Position numbers and translations under genes: made by a program. Source: an uncultured bacterium (lineage in GTDB: Bacteria > Bacillota_I > Bacilli_A > RFN20 > CAG-826). Taken from it: DNA of 64,000 bases. The stretch spans positions 1-64,000 of the forward strand of contig CASFQA010000006.1 in NCBI GenBank assembly GCA_949296775.1, in the 5' to 3' direction. This document shows, piece by piece, positions 57,548 through 63,903 of the stretch (position 1 is its first letter; each line of letters starts with the position of its first letter). The notes beneath the pieces are model-generated. The model made no database searches. It saw only the letters and a list, made by a program, of their open reading frames with translations, and had not been told where the DNA came from.

Positions 57548-58114
57548 CTATAGCCGTAACGAAACGTCGAGAAGAATCCGTTCCAATCCTTTGGCGATAT
57601 CGAGGAAATGGCTTTGTTTCTCGGCGCTGGATAAATACATTTCCTTAAAATGGGAAAGGGCCTTTTCCTTATCGGGGCCAGCCTCGTTATAGCCGTCCCT
57701 TATCCCTTCGTAAAGCGCCCCCGACATCATTTTCGCGGGACCATAGCAATCGAGCAGATCAAGTCCATTTTGCCCCGCTAGGTTCACGGACAAACTCCCG
57801 ATCAAAGCCTCGGCTTGCTTCAAGAACTTAGCTTGATTGGGGTCGGGCGGGAACTCGCCCCACTCCGGAAGCGAAGTCTCCGTCTTCCCGATAAGCAATT
57901 GACGTTTCAGGATCAAAGAGGCCAAGGAGATCATCGCCAAATCGAACAGGGCCCCATAAAGGTCTTGATCAAGCAGCGAATAGCCGACGAATAGATAAGC
58001 GACGTTAGGCGTAATGTCGGGGCGATAACGGTCGAGGGCACAAAGCAGATACCCCGCCGCCTTGCCGTCGGCATAGCAAGAGGAAGGGGAGATATCGAGG
58101 GTGGTTTTTTCCAT
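57548..58114 (-). CDS. Hypothetical protein (188 aa)
   Basis: This is an unrecognised, helix-rich soluble protein, likely a four-helix-type fold. It pairs with the peptidase gene (8-nt gap). ATG 58114 (MEKTTLDI) is preferred because TATATT ends 9 nt upstream. The frame beyond it is Pro/Ser-rich and not protein-like. It has no Shine-Dalgarno. It could belong to the Vsr-helicase operon only by read-through. Confidence 0.65.
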   Translation of the reverse strand: MEKTTLDISPSSCYADGKAAGYLLCALDRYRPDITPNVAYLFVGYSLLDQDLYGALFDLAMISLASLILKRQLLIGKTETSLPEWGEFPPDPNQAKFLKQAEALIGSLSVNLAGQNGLDLLDCYGPAKMMSGALYEGIRDGYNEAGPDKEKALSHFKEMYLSSAEKQSHFLDIAKGLERILLDVSLRL

Positions 58115-58239
58115 AACGAGGCTAATATAACACAAAAACCCGACGGAAGGGCTAGGGGTCGGGCCTTCCTCGGGCAACGCATATTTTAGTCAAAGCCGAC
58201 CCTAAATCAATAGAAGAAATAAACTTTTTTGCCTGTGTT

Positions 58240-59145
58240 TTATCTTTTGACGTCAACTGGACCAATGGTATCGACCAATTCGCCATTTTCGTAGACCAAT
58301 ACCAAGCGGAAACGCTCATTTTGCTGCAGACGAGGCAAAAAGATCTTGTCCCCTTCCCACATCGCGAGGTCAAAAAGGTTATTTTCATCGATGAAACGCA
58401 GTTCTCCTTCATCGCAATTGGGGTTGATATCCCCGCTCGCCCCATCGATCCGGAAAAGGTACATCCGTTCGCTGTAGTTAGGGAAATCGACAAAGTCGAT
58501 CCGCCCGAGATAAACCTGTTTGCTGACGGTTAATCCAGTTTCTTCCTTAAATTCGCGCTTGGCGGCTTGTAAATAGGTTTCTCCCTTTTCTAAGTGGCCG
58601 CCGATGCCGACGTATTTGCCTTTGTTCAGGTCCTTTTCCTTTTTGTCGCGGTATAAAAGAAGGTAACGGCCATCATGTTTGTAGTAGCTTAAGGTGGTGA
58701 ATTCCTTCGGCCTTTTGGCTAAGTAGAGGGCTTGTTTCCGCCTTTCCGCCGTCTCCTCGATTATCTTAATGACCCGTTCGAAGTCCTTGTTGATCTCAAA
58801 CCCCCAAAACCGCAGGACTTTATACCCTCGGCGTTGCAACTCGGCATTCACTTCCGCATCCCGAGCCATGTTCCGTTTGATCTTGCTCACCCAGTAGTCG
58901 CGGTGGGTGACGAGCTTGCTTTCGTTCTCCGCGAATCGGTAGCCATGCCAAAACTCCGAATCGGCGAAAACCGCCAACCGAAGCGCGGGGAAGAGGAAAT
59001 CGGGATGGCCGAAAGCCCGTTTGGAATTGCAAAGGAATCGGTAGCCGTCTTGGTAAAGCCGTTTCCTTAATTTCCGCTCGATCCCGGTGTCCTTGCCGCG
59101 GATCCGGCTCATGGTGAAGGAAACGATTTCCGGATCCCGGCTCAT
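58240..59145 (-). CDS. Vsr-type endonuclease fused to a NUDIX hydrolase
   Basis: Residues 1-135 match very-short-patch-repair endonucleases: MSRIRGKDTGIERKLRKRL, GHPDFLFP with catalytic Asp49, FWHGYRF with His67, and WVSKIKRNMARDAEVNAELQ followed by RVLxxWg-like KVLRFWGFEI. The Cys residues that bind structural zinc in Vsr are missing (ADSEFWHG). Residues 145-300 form a NUDIX domain with a complete box, Gly183-x5-Glu189-x7-REFKEETGL. Vsr nicks DNA at G:T mismatches. NUDIX enzymes cleave nucleoside diphosphate derivatives. It overlaps the coiled-coil gene by 4 bp. No cytosine methyltransferase is nearby. Confidence 0.9.
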   Translation of the reverse strand: MSRDPEIVSFTMSRIRGKDTGIERKLRKRLYQDGYRFLCNSKRAFGHPDFLFPALRLAVFADSEFWHGYRFAENESKLVTHRDYWVSKIKRNMARDAEVNAELQRRGYKVLRFWGFEINKDFERVIKIIEETAERRKQALYLAKRPKEFTTLSYYKHDGRYLLLYRDKKEKDLNKGKYVGIGGHLEKGETYLQAAKREFKEETGLTVSKQVYLGRIDFVDFPNYSERMYLFRIDGASGDINPNCDEGELRFIDENNLFDLAMWEGDKIFLPRLQQNERFRLVLVYENGELVDTIGPVDVKR

Positions 59146-59600
59146 TTCTTTTTCTTCCCTTTGCCCTTGCTTATCCCCCGGGAATCGAGGTTGGCCTTAA
59201 TCCCTTTCCCGGCGTTTTTGGATTTTTTCTCCTTATCGGCGGGCTTGAGGGTTTCGTTGATTTTTTCGCTAATCTCGCCGCAGCTCGCTTTTAACTCATC
59301 CATCTTCTTCCCGACTTCATCGAATAGTTCCTTGTTCAAGGTCGTCATCGCCTTGTCGAGAAGGGAGCTTATCGAGGTGAATTTGCTTTCGAAGGCTTCG
59401 ATTTTGGCGGCGAGGGAGGACAAAGCGTCGAGTTGGCGGCTATACTCGCCCAATTGGTTATGGAGGGCCTCAACTTGCTCAGTCAAATCGGAGAGCCGGG
59501 TATCGAAGCTTTCCTCCACTTCCTTGATCGCGGCGACGTCCTCCCCCAATTGCTCCAAGCTCGTGAGGGTTTTGATCAATCTGTCATCGGCGTTTTCCAT
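59142..59600 (-). CDS. Small coiled-coil protein between helicase and Vsr-NUDIX
   Basis: This 152-residue protein is almost entirely heptad-patterned coiled coil (about 5-115), with a Lys-rich basic tail (about 118-152). AAGGAG lies 9 nt before ATG 59600, inside the helicase gene's last codons. It overlaps the helicase by 17 bp and the Vsr-NUDIX gene by 4 bp. It probably bridges or oligomerises the other two proteins, and the basic tail could touch DNA. No homologue is recognised. Confidence 0.8.
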   Translation of the reverse strand: MENADDRLIKTLTSLEQLGEDVAAIKEVEESFDTRLSDLTEQVEALHNQLGEYSRQLDALSSLAAKIEAFESKFTSISSLLDKAMTTLNKELFDEVGKKMDELKASCGEISEKINETLKPADKEKKSKNAGKGIKANLDSRGISKGKGKKKK

Positions 59601-62600
59601 TGTTGGCATCTCCTTTCAAGGTATCTTTTATCTTTTTGGCCAATTTGCGGCAACTGAACTCGAAGAAGGCGGCCTTCTCGAGGTAAGTCGATTTCTCCAC
59701 CACTTTCCGGAATAAGCCAACCACGTCGGCGGTTTCGCTCGAAGCGTGGGTATAATGGAGAAGATCGGCTTTATCTTTGAACCCCATCTTCTTGTAGAAC
59801 TCGTAAAGATGGCTGAGGTCGTTCTGGGTTAAGAGGAAATCGCTATAGCCGCTTTGCCAGTTAGAGGGGTCGCGGCGATTGAGGCAATCCTCGTAATGGA
59901 CATAATCTTCGGCGATCTTCAGTAAAGACGCCCCGACTGGATCTTGCTTGACCCTTTCGAAGGCCCGCTTGGCCCCCAGATAATCCCGTTCGGCCAGTAA
60001 GCGTTTCCCATGGGCGATCCAGTGCTTCGGATCAACGATGTCGCTGAATAGGAAACGATAATCGTCGAAAGACAACGGCTCCAACCCGTCCAAAAGCTTC
60101 TTATGGGAGGCCTCGGGGGCGGCAGATTCGAAAAGCAGAATCCGGTTCCGCGCCCTAGTCAAGCCGACGTAAAGCCGGTTGAACATCATCCGGTGGACGG
60201 TCGAGGCGTGGGTCGATTCCCGCCCGCCGTCTAAGCAAAGGGCGAACTCGGCCCCGAATTCGGTCAGGAAATCGACTAAGACCACCGAATCCCATTCCCG
60301 CCCCTTCGCTTCCCCGACGGAAAGGAAGGAACCGCCGATATAGTTCTCAACGTCATCATCATTAACCGAGGAAAGCCGTTTTTTGGCCTCCTCGCAAGAA
60401 GAGGGGGAAGGGAAAAGGAAGACGATGTCGGAGTCAGAAGAGGCCGCCACCTTGACGATATCGGCGAACCGGTCGTTTTCCTTGATGAAAGCGACGAAAA
60501 GGTCGTTTTGGTCTTCGCGAAGCGACTTCTCCTCGGCGTCGAGTTCCTGCTTTTGGGCCCCGATGGCTTTTTTCTTGATGGCATTCAGCTTGTTGATGAA
60601 GGCTAAGAGGTTGGGCCCGCTTCGATAGGAGCCGTCGAGGGTAAGGGCGGAGATCTTAAATGGCCGGTGGAAATGCTCGGTTAAGGCGGCGTTGGCCCTC
60701 GACAAAGAAAAGATCGTCGGGTTCACGCATTGGTTCTCGTCTCCGTAAAGGAATAAATTGAGGGAACGGGCGTCTTGAGTCCCAAGATAAGGCAAAAGGG
60801 AGATGAACTGCAACTCGGTCAAATCCTGATACTCATCGAGCACCACCGCGTCATAGCTATGGGCCCGTTTCCTTTTCCTGATGAGGCGATAAGCCAATTG
60901 GTTATCGGTATGGAGGTTGGAGGCGGAAAGGTCGCCGTCATATGCCAACCCGATTTCGTAAATCAAAGAGGCGATATCTTTTTCGATCGAGGGTTCGTCT
61001 TCCATCTTCGACAAAAACCGCTCCCGGGTCAATTTTCCGTTTGACGCGCATTCGGCCGAGCCGAACATCACCCCGCGGAGGAATAGGTACACCCGGCTCG
61101 CTTGGGAGGCTTTGCTTTCCGATAGTCCACTCATCTTCCTCGCTAAACGCGGCCTTTTGTCCAAGTAAGAGGCGTAATAGGAATGGAAATGCCCTTCCCC
61201 AGCAAGCCGGGTGCCCCCGAGTTCATCCAAGGCTAATTCGGCATAGGTGTAGCAATCGATGTTCTCGCACCCCATTTCCGTTAATTTCTTTTGGGCGTAA
61301 TCCCGGAGGGCCGGCTCATAAGTCAAATACAGGACTTTGCCGTTTCCTTGCAAATCAAGGCAGTTTTGCAGCGAAAGAATGGTTTTCCCGGTTCCGGCCG
61401 ACCCGGTAAAGGCGACCGGAGGGACCAAGCTAGCCGAACGGAGCAAGCCGAATTGCTTGTCGCTAGGATAGGCCAAGGAATCGGTTTTCTTCTTGTTCAG
61501 GTCGAGGAAGACCCGTTCAAGTTGCAGGGGCCGATTTTCATTTAACCGCCTCTCCCATTGGTTGGCGGCCTCCCCTTGACGGTCGTGGTCTTCGTGGGGG
61601 ATGAGGTCGAGGAGGATGAAATCGCTCGGCCGGAAATTCCGGTTCTCCAGGCTCAGATAGCGTTTGCAATCGGCGCCCCGGATGAAGAAAACCCGCGATC
61701 CGGCGTAATCGCCGCCTTTTAAGCGGAACTTATGGATTTGCTTGATCTGCTTCAGGTTCCGGCTGCTTAGATACTGGACTAAGGAGGGTTCGCTAGTGAT
61801 GAGCAGCTTCCGCTCCATCTCGGCGATCTCCGCCTCGGCTTCCGGATGCTTATTCAGCAGTTTGGCGAAGGCGGCGTTGAAACGGAAACTCCGGAAAAGG
61901 CGCCGCTCCTCCTTGATATCGAAATCGACCTCCGGCTCCTCCTCTTCGATAACCTCCGGTTCGCTAGGGAAAGGGGGGTCAGGATAATCCGGTTGAAGAT
62001 CAGCCAGGGGCTCGAGAGCATAGTCCGGGCTTAAACCCGGCTCGACGGCCGCTTCCGCCTCCTCTTTTTTAGCCAAAGCATGTTCCTTTTCGTAGATCGA
62101 ATAAAGGAAATCGCCGGAGACGTAACCGTTATTGACCGTGACGTCAATTGAGGAATAGGCGACGATCGGCAGCTCTTTCCGCCGGTCGATGCGGACCACC
62201 AAATAAAAATATGGGGCTTGGATATGCCGAAGCAAAACGAAAGAAGGAACTTTCGCCTGATTCCCAAGGCAAGCGAGGATGGCGTAATCGGCCGGATCGA
62301 AAAAGGAAAGCAAGTCAAAAACCGGATCGTTTAAATCAATAACCCGCGGGCAATAAAGGCAGCATGGGTCGAACTCCGGCTTCTTCCCCGCCAGATCCTT
62401 TTCGATCCGCGAGAGGATGCCGAAATTCTCGGGGCTCCCAACCAATTGGTAATAACGGCATTTATGGCTTGCTAAGCTCGGCTTTAGGTCATAGTCGGAA
62501 ATCGATTTGGCGTAGGTCCGTTGATTGCTGGGCTTCCGGTAATTGGGATTGGCGACCAAATTCGGGATCTCGGTTTTCCTCTTCGCTTCGAAACTCGGTT

Positions 62601-63312
62601 TCCGGAAAGGCTCGAAAGAAGAAGACGGCTTAGAGTCCGTTGGACCGGTGATCTTCTTCGGCTTTTTCGAGGTCGAGGGGGTGAAGGAAGGGGCAAACGA
62701 CGATGGCAAAGAGGCGGGGGAGGCGTCTTCGCCCTCCTCTTCCTCCTCGTCTTTCCATTGCTTTGCGAACCCCAGATTTTTGATTTTCTTTTTGGCGGTG
62801 CTTTGGAAATACCCTTGGACCACGACGTTCGTCGGCTCGGCCTCCTGTCTGTCAATTGGCGGCAAGATCCGTTCGCTAGGCTTGACATTCGGGACGTAAT
62901 CGGGGTCATCGAACAGCTCGCGCAGCGCTGAGAGCGAATAATATTGGCCGGCTGAGAGCACGGCATATTCCTCGAACAAGGCGACGGCTATCTCCCCTTT
63001 GCTCAAATCGACGACATAAGCGGGGATAAGCCCGCCAAGATGGCCGATAAGAGCGAATAACGGCGTGCCGTATTGGTCGACTTCATAGGCGATGGTCGCC
63101 CAGTCGTCTAATGAAAAAAGCAGCAAATCCTCATTATCTTGATCGAAAAGGCGGTAATTACGCGGATAAGCGGCGTGACCGGGCCGAAACTTCAAGGAAG
63201 TGAATTCGGCGAAGGCTTTGCTTAAGCGCGAGTAAGCCTCTTCCGGGGCATCAGGATCGTAAAAAAGATGAATCGCGTGGCCTTTGTATGTTTTATCACC
63301 ATATCGATACAT
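59584..63312 (-). CDS. Large UvrD-type (SF1) helicase with unknown N-terminal region
   Basis: This 1242-residue protein has a C-terminal UvrD/Rep-like helicase with Walker A GSAGTGKT (637-644), motif II LDEYQDL (about 824-830), motif III GDENQCV, YRSGPNLL, and motif VI VGLTRARNR (about 1048-1056). A helical tail follows. The first 600 residues hold an unrecognised domain (about 1-150) and a Ser/Pro/Lys linker (about 160-280). A second unknown domain with CCLYCP comes next (about 285-425), then an acidic linker. A beta-rich segment (about 505-590, HKFRLKGGDYAGSRVFFI) recalls RelE/ParE-like folds. It is the first gene of the three-gene operon. AAAGG abuts the start codon. Confidence 0.9.
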   Translation of the reverse strand: MYRYGDKTYKGHAIHLFYDPDAPEEAYSRLSKAFAEFTSLKFRPGHAAYPRNYRLFDQDNEDLLLFSLDDWATIAYEVDQYGTPLFALIGHLGGLIPAYVVDLSKGEIAVALFEEYAVLSAGQYYSLSALRELFDDPDYVPNVKPSERILPPIDRQEAEPTNVVVQGYFQSTAKKKIKNLGFAKQWKDEEEEEGEDASPASLPSSFAPSFTPSTSKKPKKITGPTDSKPSSSFEPFRKPSFEAKRKTEIPNLVANPNYRKPSNQRTYAKSISDYDLKPSLASHKCRYYQLVGSPENFGILSRIEKDLAGKKPEFDPCCLYCPRVIDLNDPVFDLLSFFDPADYAILACLGNQAKVPSFVLLRHIQAPYFYLVVRIDRRKELPIVAYSSIDVTVNNGYVSGDFLYSIYEKEHALAKKEEAEAAVEPGLSPDYALEPLADLQPDYPDPPFPSEPEVIEEEEPEVDFDIKEERRLFRSFRFNAAFAKLLNKHPEAEAEIAEMERKLLITSEPSLVQYLSSRNLKQIKQIHKFRLKGGDYAGSRVFFIRGADCKRYLSLENRNFRPSDFILLDLIPHEDHDRQGEAANQWERRLNENRPLQLERVFLDLNKKKTDSLAYPSDKQFGLLRSASLVPPVAFTGSAGTGKTILSLQNCLDLQGNGKVLYLTYEPALRDYAQKKLTEMGCENIDCYTYAELALDELGGTRLAGEGHFHSYYASYLDKRPRLARKMSGLSESKASQASRVYLFLRGVMFGSAECASNGKLTRERFLSKMEDEPSIEKDIASLIYEIGLAYDGDLSASNLHTDNQLAYRLIRKRKRAHSYDAVVLDEYQDLTELQFISLLPYLGTQDARSLNLFLYGDENQCVNPTIFSLSRANAALTEHFHRPFKISALTLDGSYRSGPNLLAFINKLNAIKKKAIGAQKQELDAEEKSLREDQNDLFVAFIKENDRFADIVKVAASSDSDIVFLFPSPSSCEEAKKRLSSVNDDDVENYIGGSFLSVGEAKGREWDSVVLVDFLTEFGAEFALCLDGGRESTHASTVHRMMFNRLYVGLTRARNRILLFESAAPEASHKKLLDGLEPLSFDDYRFLFSDIVDPKHWIAHGKRLLAERDYLGAKRAFERVKQDPVGASLLKIAEDYVHYEDCLNRRDPSNWQSGYSDFLLTQNDLSHLYEFYKKMGFKDKADLLHYTHASSETADVVGLFRKVVEKSTYLEKAAFFEFSCRKLAKKIKDTLKGDANNGKRR

Positions 63313-63363: not shown

Positions 63364-63903
63364 GTGGAAAGATTAACAAAAGCCCAACCGCCGCTTCGGC
63401 CTTTGCTCGACAAACTGCTCAACCGGGTCGAGGAAGGGCTCCTTCGGTCCGGCTTGCCCTCCTTCGACTGTTTTTATTCCCGACCCGCCGAGCTTGACCA
63501 CGTCTATGTCTATTCTTCCTCAAGGCGGGATTTGGGGATGTTCGAGATCGGCTCAAGCTTAGACGATTGCTTCCCCGAAAGCCGAGCCTTTCAAAACAGC
63601 GAGAACGTCTTGGAACGGATCGCTTACAAGGGCGAACGGATCGTCTTGATTAAGTTTTTGGCCATCGACCCGGCTTTTGAAGGGAAAGGATATGGGCGGA
63701 ACCTCCTGGCTTCGATCCATAGCCATTTCCGGGAAACCTCTTTCTTCGTCTATCTTCCCGTCCAATACAAAAGGGCGGTCCGCTTCTTCCGGCAAGCGGG
63801 ATATCACCCGGTCAGCCAAGAAGGGGAACTCGCCCTCTTTGATATGATCTTGCTTTGCCGGCCCTACCAGCCATCCGGCTTGTGCCGGGAAGCCCGGTTT
63901 TAA
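63364..63903 (+). CDS. GNAT-family acetyltransferase
   Basis: This 179-residue protein has the acetyl-CoA loop FEGKGYGRNLLASIHSH (R/QxxGxG/A type) after KFLAIDPA, and YLPVQYKRAVRFFRQAGYHP near the C-terminus, typical of GNAT enzymes. The start is GTG 63364 with AAGGAT 6 nt upstream. The acceptor is unknown. It is divergent from the helicase operon across 51 bp and overlaps the convergent ABC gene by 4 bp. Confidence 0.85.
   Translation: MERLTKAQPPLRPLLDKLLNRVEEGLLRSGLPSFDCFYSRPAELDHVYVYSSSRRDLGMFEIGSSLDDCFPESRAFQNSENVLERIAYKGERIVLIKFLAIDPAFEGKGYGRNLLASIHSHFRETSFFVYLPVQYKRAVRFFRQAGYHPVSQEGELALFDMILLCRPYQPSGLCREARF

Follow-up and report, generated by a model that had tools for sequence, protein, structure and literature searches.

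A Vsr–NUDIX fusion protein at a conserved chromosomal site in bacteria lacking MutS1 and MutL: a putative mutation-avoidance enzyme with an optional helicase and coiled-coil pair

Very-short-patch repair has been described as a nick made by Vsr that is followed by removal by a helicase and resynthesis by Pol I (PMC12907096). In Mollicutes, which are without MutS, MutL and MutH, a Mycoplasma gallisepticum helicase with a Vsr domain (MGA_0793) has a proposed part in mismatch repair (PMC4007778), and EndoMS/NucS is an example of a single mismatch endonuclease that can carry mismatch repair where MutS–MutL (MutSL) is missing (PMC5290159, PMC8228993). Beyond Actinobacteria and Archaea, where EndoMS/NucS solved the problem, the control of mutation rate in bacteria without MutSL is an open question. 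In this study, we analysed positions 1 to 64,000 of contig CASFQA010000006.1 (assembly GCA_949296775.1; hereafter the window, 64,000 nucleotides), which comes from an uncultured bacterium of the lineage Bacillota_I; Bacilli_A; RFN20; CAG-826. At 58240-63312, on the reverse strand, it carries genes for a multidomain SF1 helicase, a coiled-coil protein and a fusion of Vsr to a NUDIX hydrolase domain. We believe, with moderate confidence, that the Vsr–NUDIX protein may be a chromosomal, vertically inherited mutation-avoidance enzyme that is independent of MutSL and works with a helicase or scaffold partner.

The Vsr–NUDIX gene (58240-59145, reverse strand) encodes 301 amino acids. Its Vsr domain (residues 1-138; 58732..59145, reverse strand) scored above the curated cut-offs of both databases: 65 bits in Pfam, against 27, with an E value of 5e-18, and 103 bits for NCBIfam vsr, against 97.85. 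The NUDIX domain (residues 150-297; 58255..58698, reverse strand) matched Pfam with an E value of 5e-15 and contains the Nudix box GHLEKGETYLQAAKREFKEETGL. Pfam, NCBIfam and PADLOC bore out both the two domains in a single chain and an SF1 motor, as called in an earlier note on this DNA. No paper describing a Vsr–NUDIX fusion was found in the literature searched.

In E. coli Vsr, D51, H69 and E25 carry out the cut, and M14, F67 and W68 wedge the mismatch. The alignment to 1cw0 (E. coli Vsr) showed that all six (E. coli numbering) are kept in the Vsr half; these key residues are invariant across 26 sequences of the genus, with D49 nearly so. H64 and the zinc ligands C66, H71, C73 and C117 are replaced by D62, E64, Y69, F71 and F116. 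The protein resembles the Vsr enzymes of E. coli (1cw0) and Neisseria (PMC6116569) in family type and in the residues for cleavage and wedging, and it differs from E. coli Vsr in its NUDIX fusion, in having no zinc ligands and D for H64, and in having no obligatory C5-methyltransferase. E. coli Vsr is stimulated by MutL, whereas the host here is without MutL. In the NUDIX half, the consensus GX5EX7REUXEEXGU is complete at residues 183-205, with nearly every position invariant in the genus alignment. The nearest solved structures to this half are the MTH1 8-oxo-dGTPases (E 1e-12), and the MutT model scored it at 29 bits against a cut-off of 98. MTH1 and MutT-type 8-oxo-dGTP hydrolases share the Nudix box with it, but they are standalone enzymes.

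The genomes compared are mostly incomplete metagenome assemblies, and the absence of MutSL rests on agreement across dozens of them. MutL was found in none of the 31 genomes of the genus, compared with 22 of 24 genomes from other families in the order. MutS1 was seen in no genus genome searched, the only match being of MutS2 size (up to about 129 bits), whereas 11 of 12 genomes of other families gave a MutS1 match of 260-290 bits. By these searches the host lacks MutS1–MutL, a condition shared with the EndoMS/NucS pathway, and a point that the earlier note had overlooked. Most genera of the family lack MutS1, which has been kept in g3, g4, g6, g35, g36, g171, g172, g177 and g179. Among 146 family genomes, all 24 Vsr carriers were without MutS1 and all 21 MutS1 carriers were without Vsr. 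We regard this mutual exclusion as only suggestive for a repair role because it involves four Vsr-bearing genera. Against this loss of MutSL across most genera of the family, two sister genera retain Vsr at one site through speciation, NUDIX-fused in one of them.

The Vsr–NUDIX protein was found at full length in 28 of 30 same-genus relatives (one cut by a contig end). Most forms of the locus share one site, in the order c5, two ABC genes, a divergent GNAT gene, the locus itself and c4, and Vsr–NUDIX is nearly always there. In the sister genus, most genomes checked carry at the same site a standalone Vsr that is 50-63% identical. A sample of 392 genomes of the phylum had suggested that the fusion was confined to one genus; this was overturned by three sister-genus genomes (G592, G497 and G503) in which the same-site Vsr is fused in frame to NUDIX. 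The fusion may have arisen once, with later losses, or twice. The Vsr-domain tree follows the genera, although deep branches of our trees are weak. Together with the same-site Vsr of the sister genus, this argues for vertical inheritance and not for a mobile defence gene, and the near-universal fusion at one site fits a housekeeping pattern. Vsr evidently occupied the site before the two genera split, and the helicase pair was evidently inserted later between GNAT and Vsr.

Beside this gene, the other layers vary. The helicase lies upstream of Vsr–NUDIX in about 17 genus genomes (G012 and G023 inferred from split contigs or contig ends), and helicase, coiled coil and Vsr–NUDIX are consecutive in about 15; at least 10 genomes have Vsr–NUDIX without the helicase and coiled coil. 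In 7 genus genomes, the helicase is replaced by a protein of 427-531 amino acids that has only the N-terminal modules (N-modules) and motif linker of the helicase, without motor or coiled coil, and in 4 of the 7 (G005, G007, G008 and G022) it overlaps or sits within 3 bp of the Vsr–NUDIX open reading frame (ORF). In 3 genus genomes there is nothing between GNAT and Vsr–NUDIX. The at-site helicases form one clade (100/99). The helicase and Vsr–NUDIX trees have 7 of 12 splits in common (shuffled mean 0.17, maximum 4), so the two are co-inherited. From sequence comparison, Vsr–NUDIX is evidently the constant layer, and helicase plus coiled coil an optional pair inserted at the site and co-inherited where present. 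The expectation of the earlier note that the three genes occur together in related genomes held for approximately half of the genus, and not as a fixed system; we rejected a defence system of three inseparable genes, since each layer is also found on its own and Vsr–NUDIX is syntenic and vertical.

The helicase gene (59584-63312, reverse strand) encodes 1242 amino acids. The earlier note had described 600 unassigned N-terminal residues before an SF1 motor; the motor stood, whereas the N-terminal part could be divided. N-module A (residues 1-141; 62890..63312, reverse strand) is a predicted alpha/beta domain (model pLDDT 91.7) without a confident PDB match, and N-module B (residues 273-413; 62074..62496, reverse strand) is its second copy. 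By iterative profile search, this one module occurs in two copies within the first 415 residues, as it does in almost all relatives. The low-complexity linker (62443..62820, reverse strand) bears repeated motifs of the type F-x-x-x-S-x-K-K-P/I-x-N-L, and a motif scan found two to four copies of F-x-x-x-S-x-K-K-P-x-N-L in several relatives. Residues 462-628 (61429..61929, reverse strand) form a domain whose predicted structure is RelE/HigB-like: Foldseek matched it to Cami1 with probability 1.00 and to HigB with 0.99-1.00 (E 1.6e-3 to 1.2e-2). A sequence search of the PDB gave no match, and the likeness came only through the fold search. On the model, this region adopts a RelE/HigB-like fold, in which K521, K528, R540, H576 and Q579 are invariant. 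The earlier note had recognised neither the duplicated module nor the RelE-like domain, nor the variant without a helicase.

The SF1 (UvrD-like) motor core (60124..61428, reverse strand) matched SF1 models weakly (AAA_19, 3e-7), yet all SF1 motifs are present: an intact Walker A GSAGTGKT, DEYQD, GDENQ, SYRSG, AKGREWD and VGLTRAR. Among solved proteins, F-box DNA helicase 1 is closest to it in sequence. It is followed by a C-terminal helical region (59587..60123, reverse strand) with a weak TPR-like match. An ordinary PcrA paralogue, the outcome that would have spoken against the earlier note, was rejected, since the scores lie far beneath the NCBIfam pcrA and uvrD cut-offs (12.5 against 911 bits and 18.5 against 1144). 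The second gene encodes a coiled-coil protein with a lysine-rich tail, which occurs only together with the helicase motor.

In the mechanism that we propose, the Vsr half would introduce a nick into the T strand of G:T mismatches, with no need for 5-methylcytosine, and the NUDIX half would hydrolyse oxidised or otherwise wrong deoxynucleoside triphosphates (dNTPs), of the 8-oxo-dGTP type, at the same location. The helicase, which is co-translated, would then strip the nicked strand and a polymerase would fill the short patch. The N-modules and linker motifs may act as a scaffold, retained alone in helicase-less species, and the coiled coil may be a dedicated partner of the helicase. Every biochemical step here is one that we infer; among the functions put forward earlier, the best fit is the removal of nucleotides that are damaged or mispaired. 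MGA_0793 likewise combines a helicase and a Vsr domain in bacteria without MutS, MutL and MutH, but it is one fused protein, whereas here the proteins are separate and co-translated, and no NUDIX domain has been reported for it. The likeness to EndoMS/NucS lies in the proposed logic: a mismatch-specific endonuclease, a host without MutS–MutL and a G:T preference. The protein family differs. Vsr is a nickase, but NucS makes cuts in both strands and also attaches to the sliding clamp; the role of NucS was established by genetics, and that of Vsr–NUDIX is proposed here from sequence.

Several observations weigh against a general repair role. No Vsr was seen in two genus genomes (G004 and G018). 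All four zinc ligands of Vsr are lost and D stands at H64, so the substrate preference of Vsr may have changed. The exclusion between Vsr and MutS1 spans only four Vsr-bearing genera and reaches a Fisher p of 0.025 with kinship uncorrected, and numerous relatives without MutSL also do without Vsr altogether. The helicase itself is dispensable, and elsewhere relatives of it adjoin defence genes. In the sister genus, the guanine-plus-cytosine (GC) content is 39-66% in Vsr carriers and 38-47% in non-carriers. We had considered GC as a possible mark of T:G to C:G repair; it looked strong between genera and failed within the sister genus, and it is not used as support because the fuller sampling of that genus did not discriminate.

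A bolder form of the mutation-avoidance reading is that Vsr–NUDIX and its helicase or scaffold partner constitute a self-contained replacement of MutS–MutL, which would give bacteria a third route next to MutSL and EndoMS/NucS. This we consider doubtful. It would unite the nicking of mismatches and the cleaning of the nucleotide pool in a single chain, with an undescribed repeated domain as scaffold, a combination to which we give equally tentative credence. Vsr–NUDIX makes the question of repair without MutSL testable with one small protein. The helicase contributes a RelE-like domain and also an alpha/beta module that has no confident PDB match and is found in motor-bearing and motor-less proteins alike.

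It is a real possibility, although we lean against it, that the helicase and coiled coil are an anti-phage module, in which a RelE-like RNase toxin would be controlled by a DNA-sensing SF1 helicase, inserted beside a resident repair gene and merely co-transcribed with it. The RelE/HigB-like fold with its invariant basic and His residues is consistent with this, as are matches of the PADLOC AbiO and GajB models to the motor core. Helicase and coiled coil also occur without Vsr–NUDIX in G033, G523, G475 and G571, and weakly in G441. For example, the pair in G475 (L114:133-9013) comes immediately after PDC-M33A/B/C and a D12-class adenine methyltransferase, with which it may form an extended defence locus, and in G239 (L113:900-10740) a helicase relative lies behind a TmtA homologue and before a 182-residue protein and a DEDDh-like exonuclease. 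An off-site helicase in G022 groups with the copy of G523, from the sister genus and likewise away from the Vsr site, which indicates that the pair moves. This copy (L066:2-12357), a helicase of 1776 amino acids with at least three N-modules and accompanied by a coiled coil, comes right after repair genes, an addAB-like pair. Also against the anti-phage module, the at-site helicases are one clade, co-inherited with Vsr–NUDIX and under purifying selection, and the N-modules stay beside Vsr–NUDIX where the helicase is gone. The association with defence that the earlier note had raised was thus found outside the genus, where the pair twice adjoins known or candidate defence genes, whereas no methyltransferase or defence neighbour was recognised at the window's site. 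As for the anti-phage role itself, Vsr–NUDIX is vertical at a fixed site, unlike a travelling anti-phage gene, and defence by the helicase pair is the part that stands as a serious rival.

Comparison with described helicases did not assign the locus to a known system. The PADLOC models AbiO, GajB and Nhi matched the motor core only; Gabija GajB, AbiO and Nhi differ in domain architecture and partners, and no full-length component match and no cognate partner, GajA included, was seen at the site. Distant helicases of Proteobacteria (L132, L140 and L142; about 680-700 amino acids) also appear, by eye, to have a RelE/ParE-like N-terminus followed by a UvrD-like motor, so RelE–UvrD is already a known arrangement; the N-modules, motif linker and coiled-coil neighbour were not seen there. 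The statement that no described system has this set of genes held in PADLOC, Pfam, NCBIfam and the literature searched.

That the three genes share transcription and no common function, as an accidental operon, seems rather unlikely to us, even though each layer occurs without the other and the two are linked in about half of the genus. As the earlier note had reported, the three ORFs overlap. The coiled-coil gene (59142-59600, reverse strand; 152 amino acids) most likely starts at ATG 59600 (MENADD...), a start that relatives share; it then overlaps the helicase gene by the 17 bp claimed, and by 26 bp with the longest ORF (to 59609, 155 amino acids). Its overlap with Vsr–NUDIX is 4 bp (ATGA), and this stop–start coupling was found again in at least 7 other genomes. 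The coupling is thus kept in many species, the helicase and Vsr–NUDIX trees are congruent, and the N-module protein is closely coupled to Vsr–NUDIX in the long form and in most of the short ones. Among the three closest species, the ratio of nonsynonymous to synonymous substitution (dN/dS) was 0.10-0.21 for the helicase, 0.08-0.27 for the coiled coil and 0.13-0.15 for Vsr–NUDIX, with dS near saturation in pairs that include the window. These values indicate protein-level purifying selection on all three genes. Given this selection and the conserved synteny, the arrangement is not due to chance. Promoter and terminator signals at the locus were no more than expected by chance.

Classical very-short-patch repair would direct the enzyme to T:G mismatches from deamination of 5-methylcytosine at the sites of a Dcm-like methyltransferase. 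Membership of the Vsr family above curated cut-offs agrees with it, some genus genomes do carry C5-methyltransferases, and a Vsr can occur without linkage to its methyltransferase (PMC12907096). Nevertheless, C5-methyltransferases were found in only 9 of 25 genus genomes, the broken fragment of the window's own genome counted, whereas Vsr–NUDIX is nearly universal, and we consider this explanation improbable. That fragment (G000:C2:201040-201402) is the sole such match in the window's genome. With no MutL or MutS1, and usually no intact C5-methyltransferase, this is not the textbook Dcm/Vsr pair, and Dcm-linked repair as a general role was rejected. A restriction-like role, in which Vsr would nick phage DNA with modified bases and NUDIX would destroy modified dNTPs, is compatible with the architecture and with the PADLOC entries for Vsr and for a NUDIX candidate (PDC-S07), but the fixed chromosomal site through two genera, the vertical tree and the lack of recognised methyltransferase or defence neighbours there make it very improbable.

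Some further observations concern the site and its relatives. In both genera the site is usually bordered upstream by the divergent GNAT gene (63364..63903, forward strand). Downstream, a gene without Pfam or NCBIfam match (57548..58117, reverse strand) lies behind Vsr–NUDIX in most genus genomes, often overlapping or closely spaced with it, and is a possible additional operon member. In G012 (L056:8877-15864), the coiled coil and Vsr–NUDIX are apart from the helicase and are adjoined by a GajB/RTasHel-like helicase and a PDC-S49-like KAP NTPase, possibly a defence cassette inserted at the site. A standalone zinc-less Vsr in G345 (L123:6044-8656) lies beside one ORF that is C5-methyltransferase-like and one more ORF, a restriction–modification setting that is usual for such a Vsr. 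Three sister-genus genomes (G241, G273 and G527; L173, L172 and L246) carry a canonical zinc-type Vsr elsewhere, with none found at the usual site, and have a GC content of 61-66%, while the family is mostly at 25-43%. For the N-module, a known fold was dropped, as no match under E 0.001 was obtained in the PDB or among viral models; its best viral matches were uncharacterised proteins of Lactobacillus phage LP65 and Lactococcus phage WRP3 (E about 0.006, probability 0.97-0.98, TM about 0.5).

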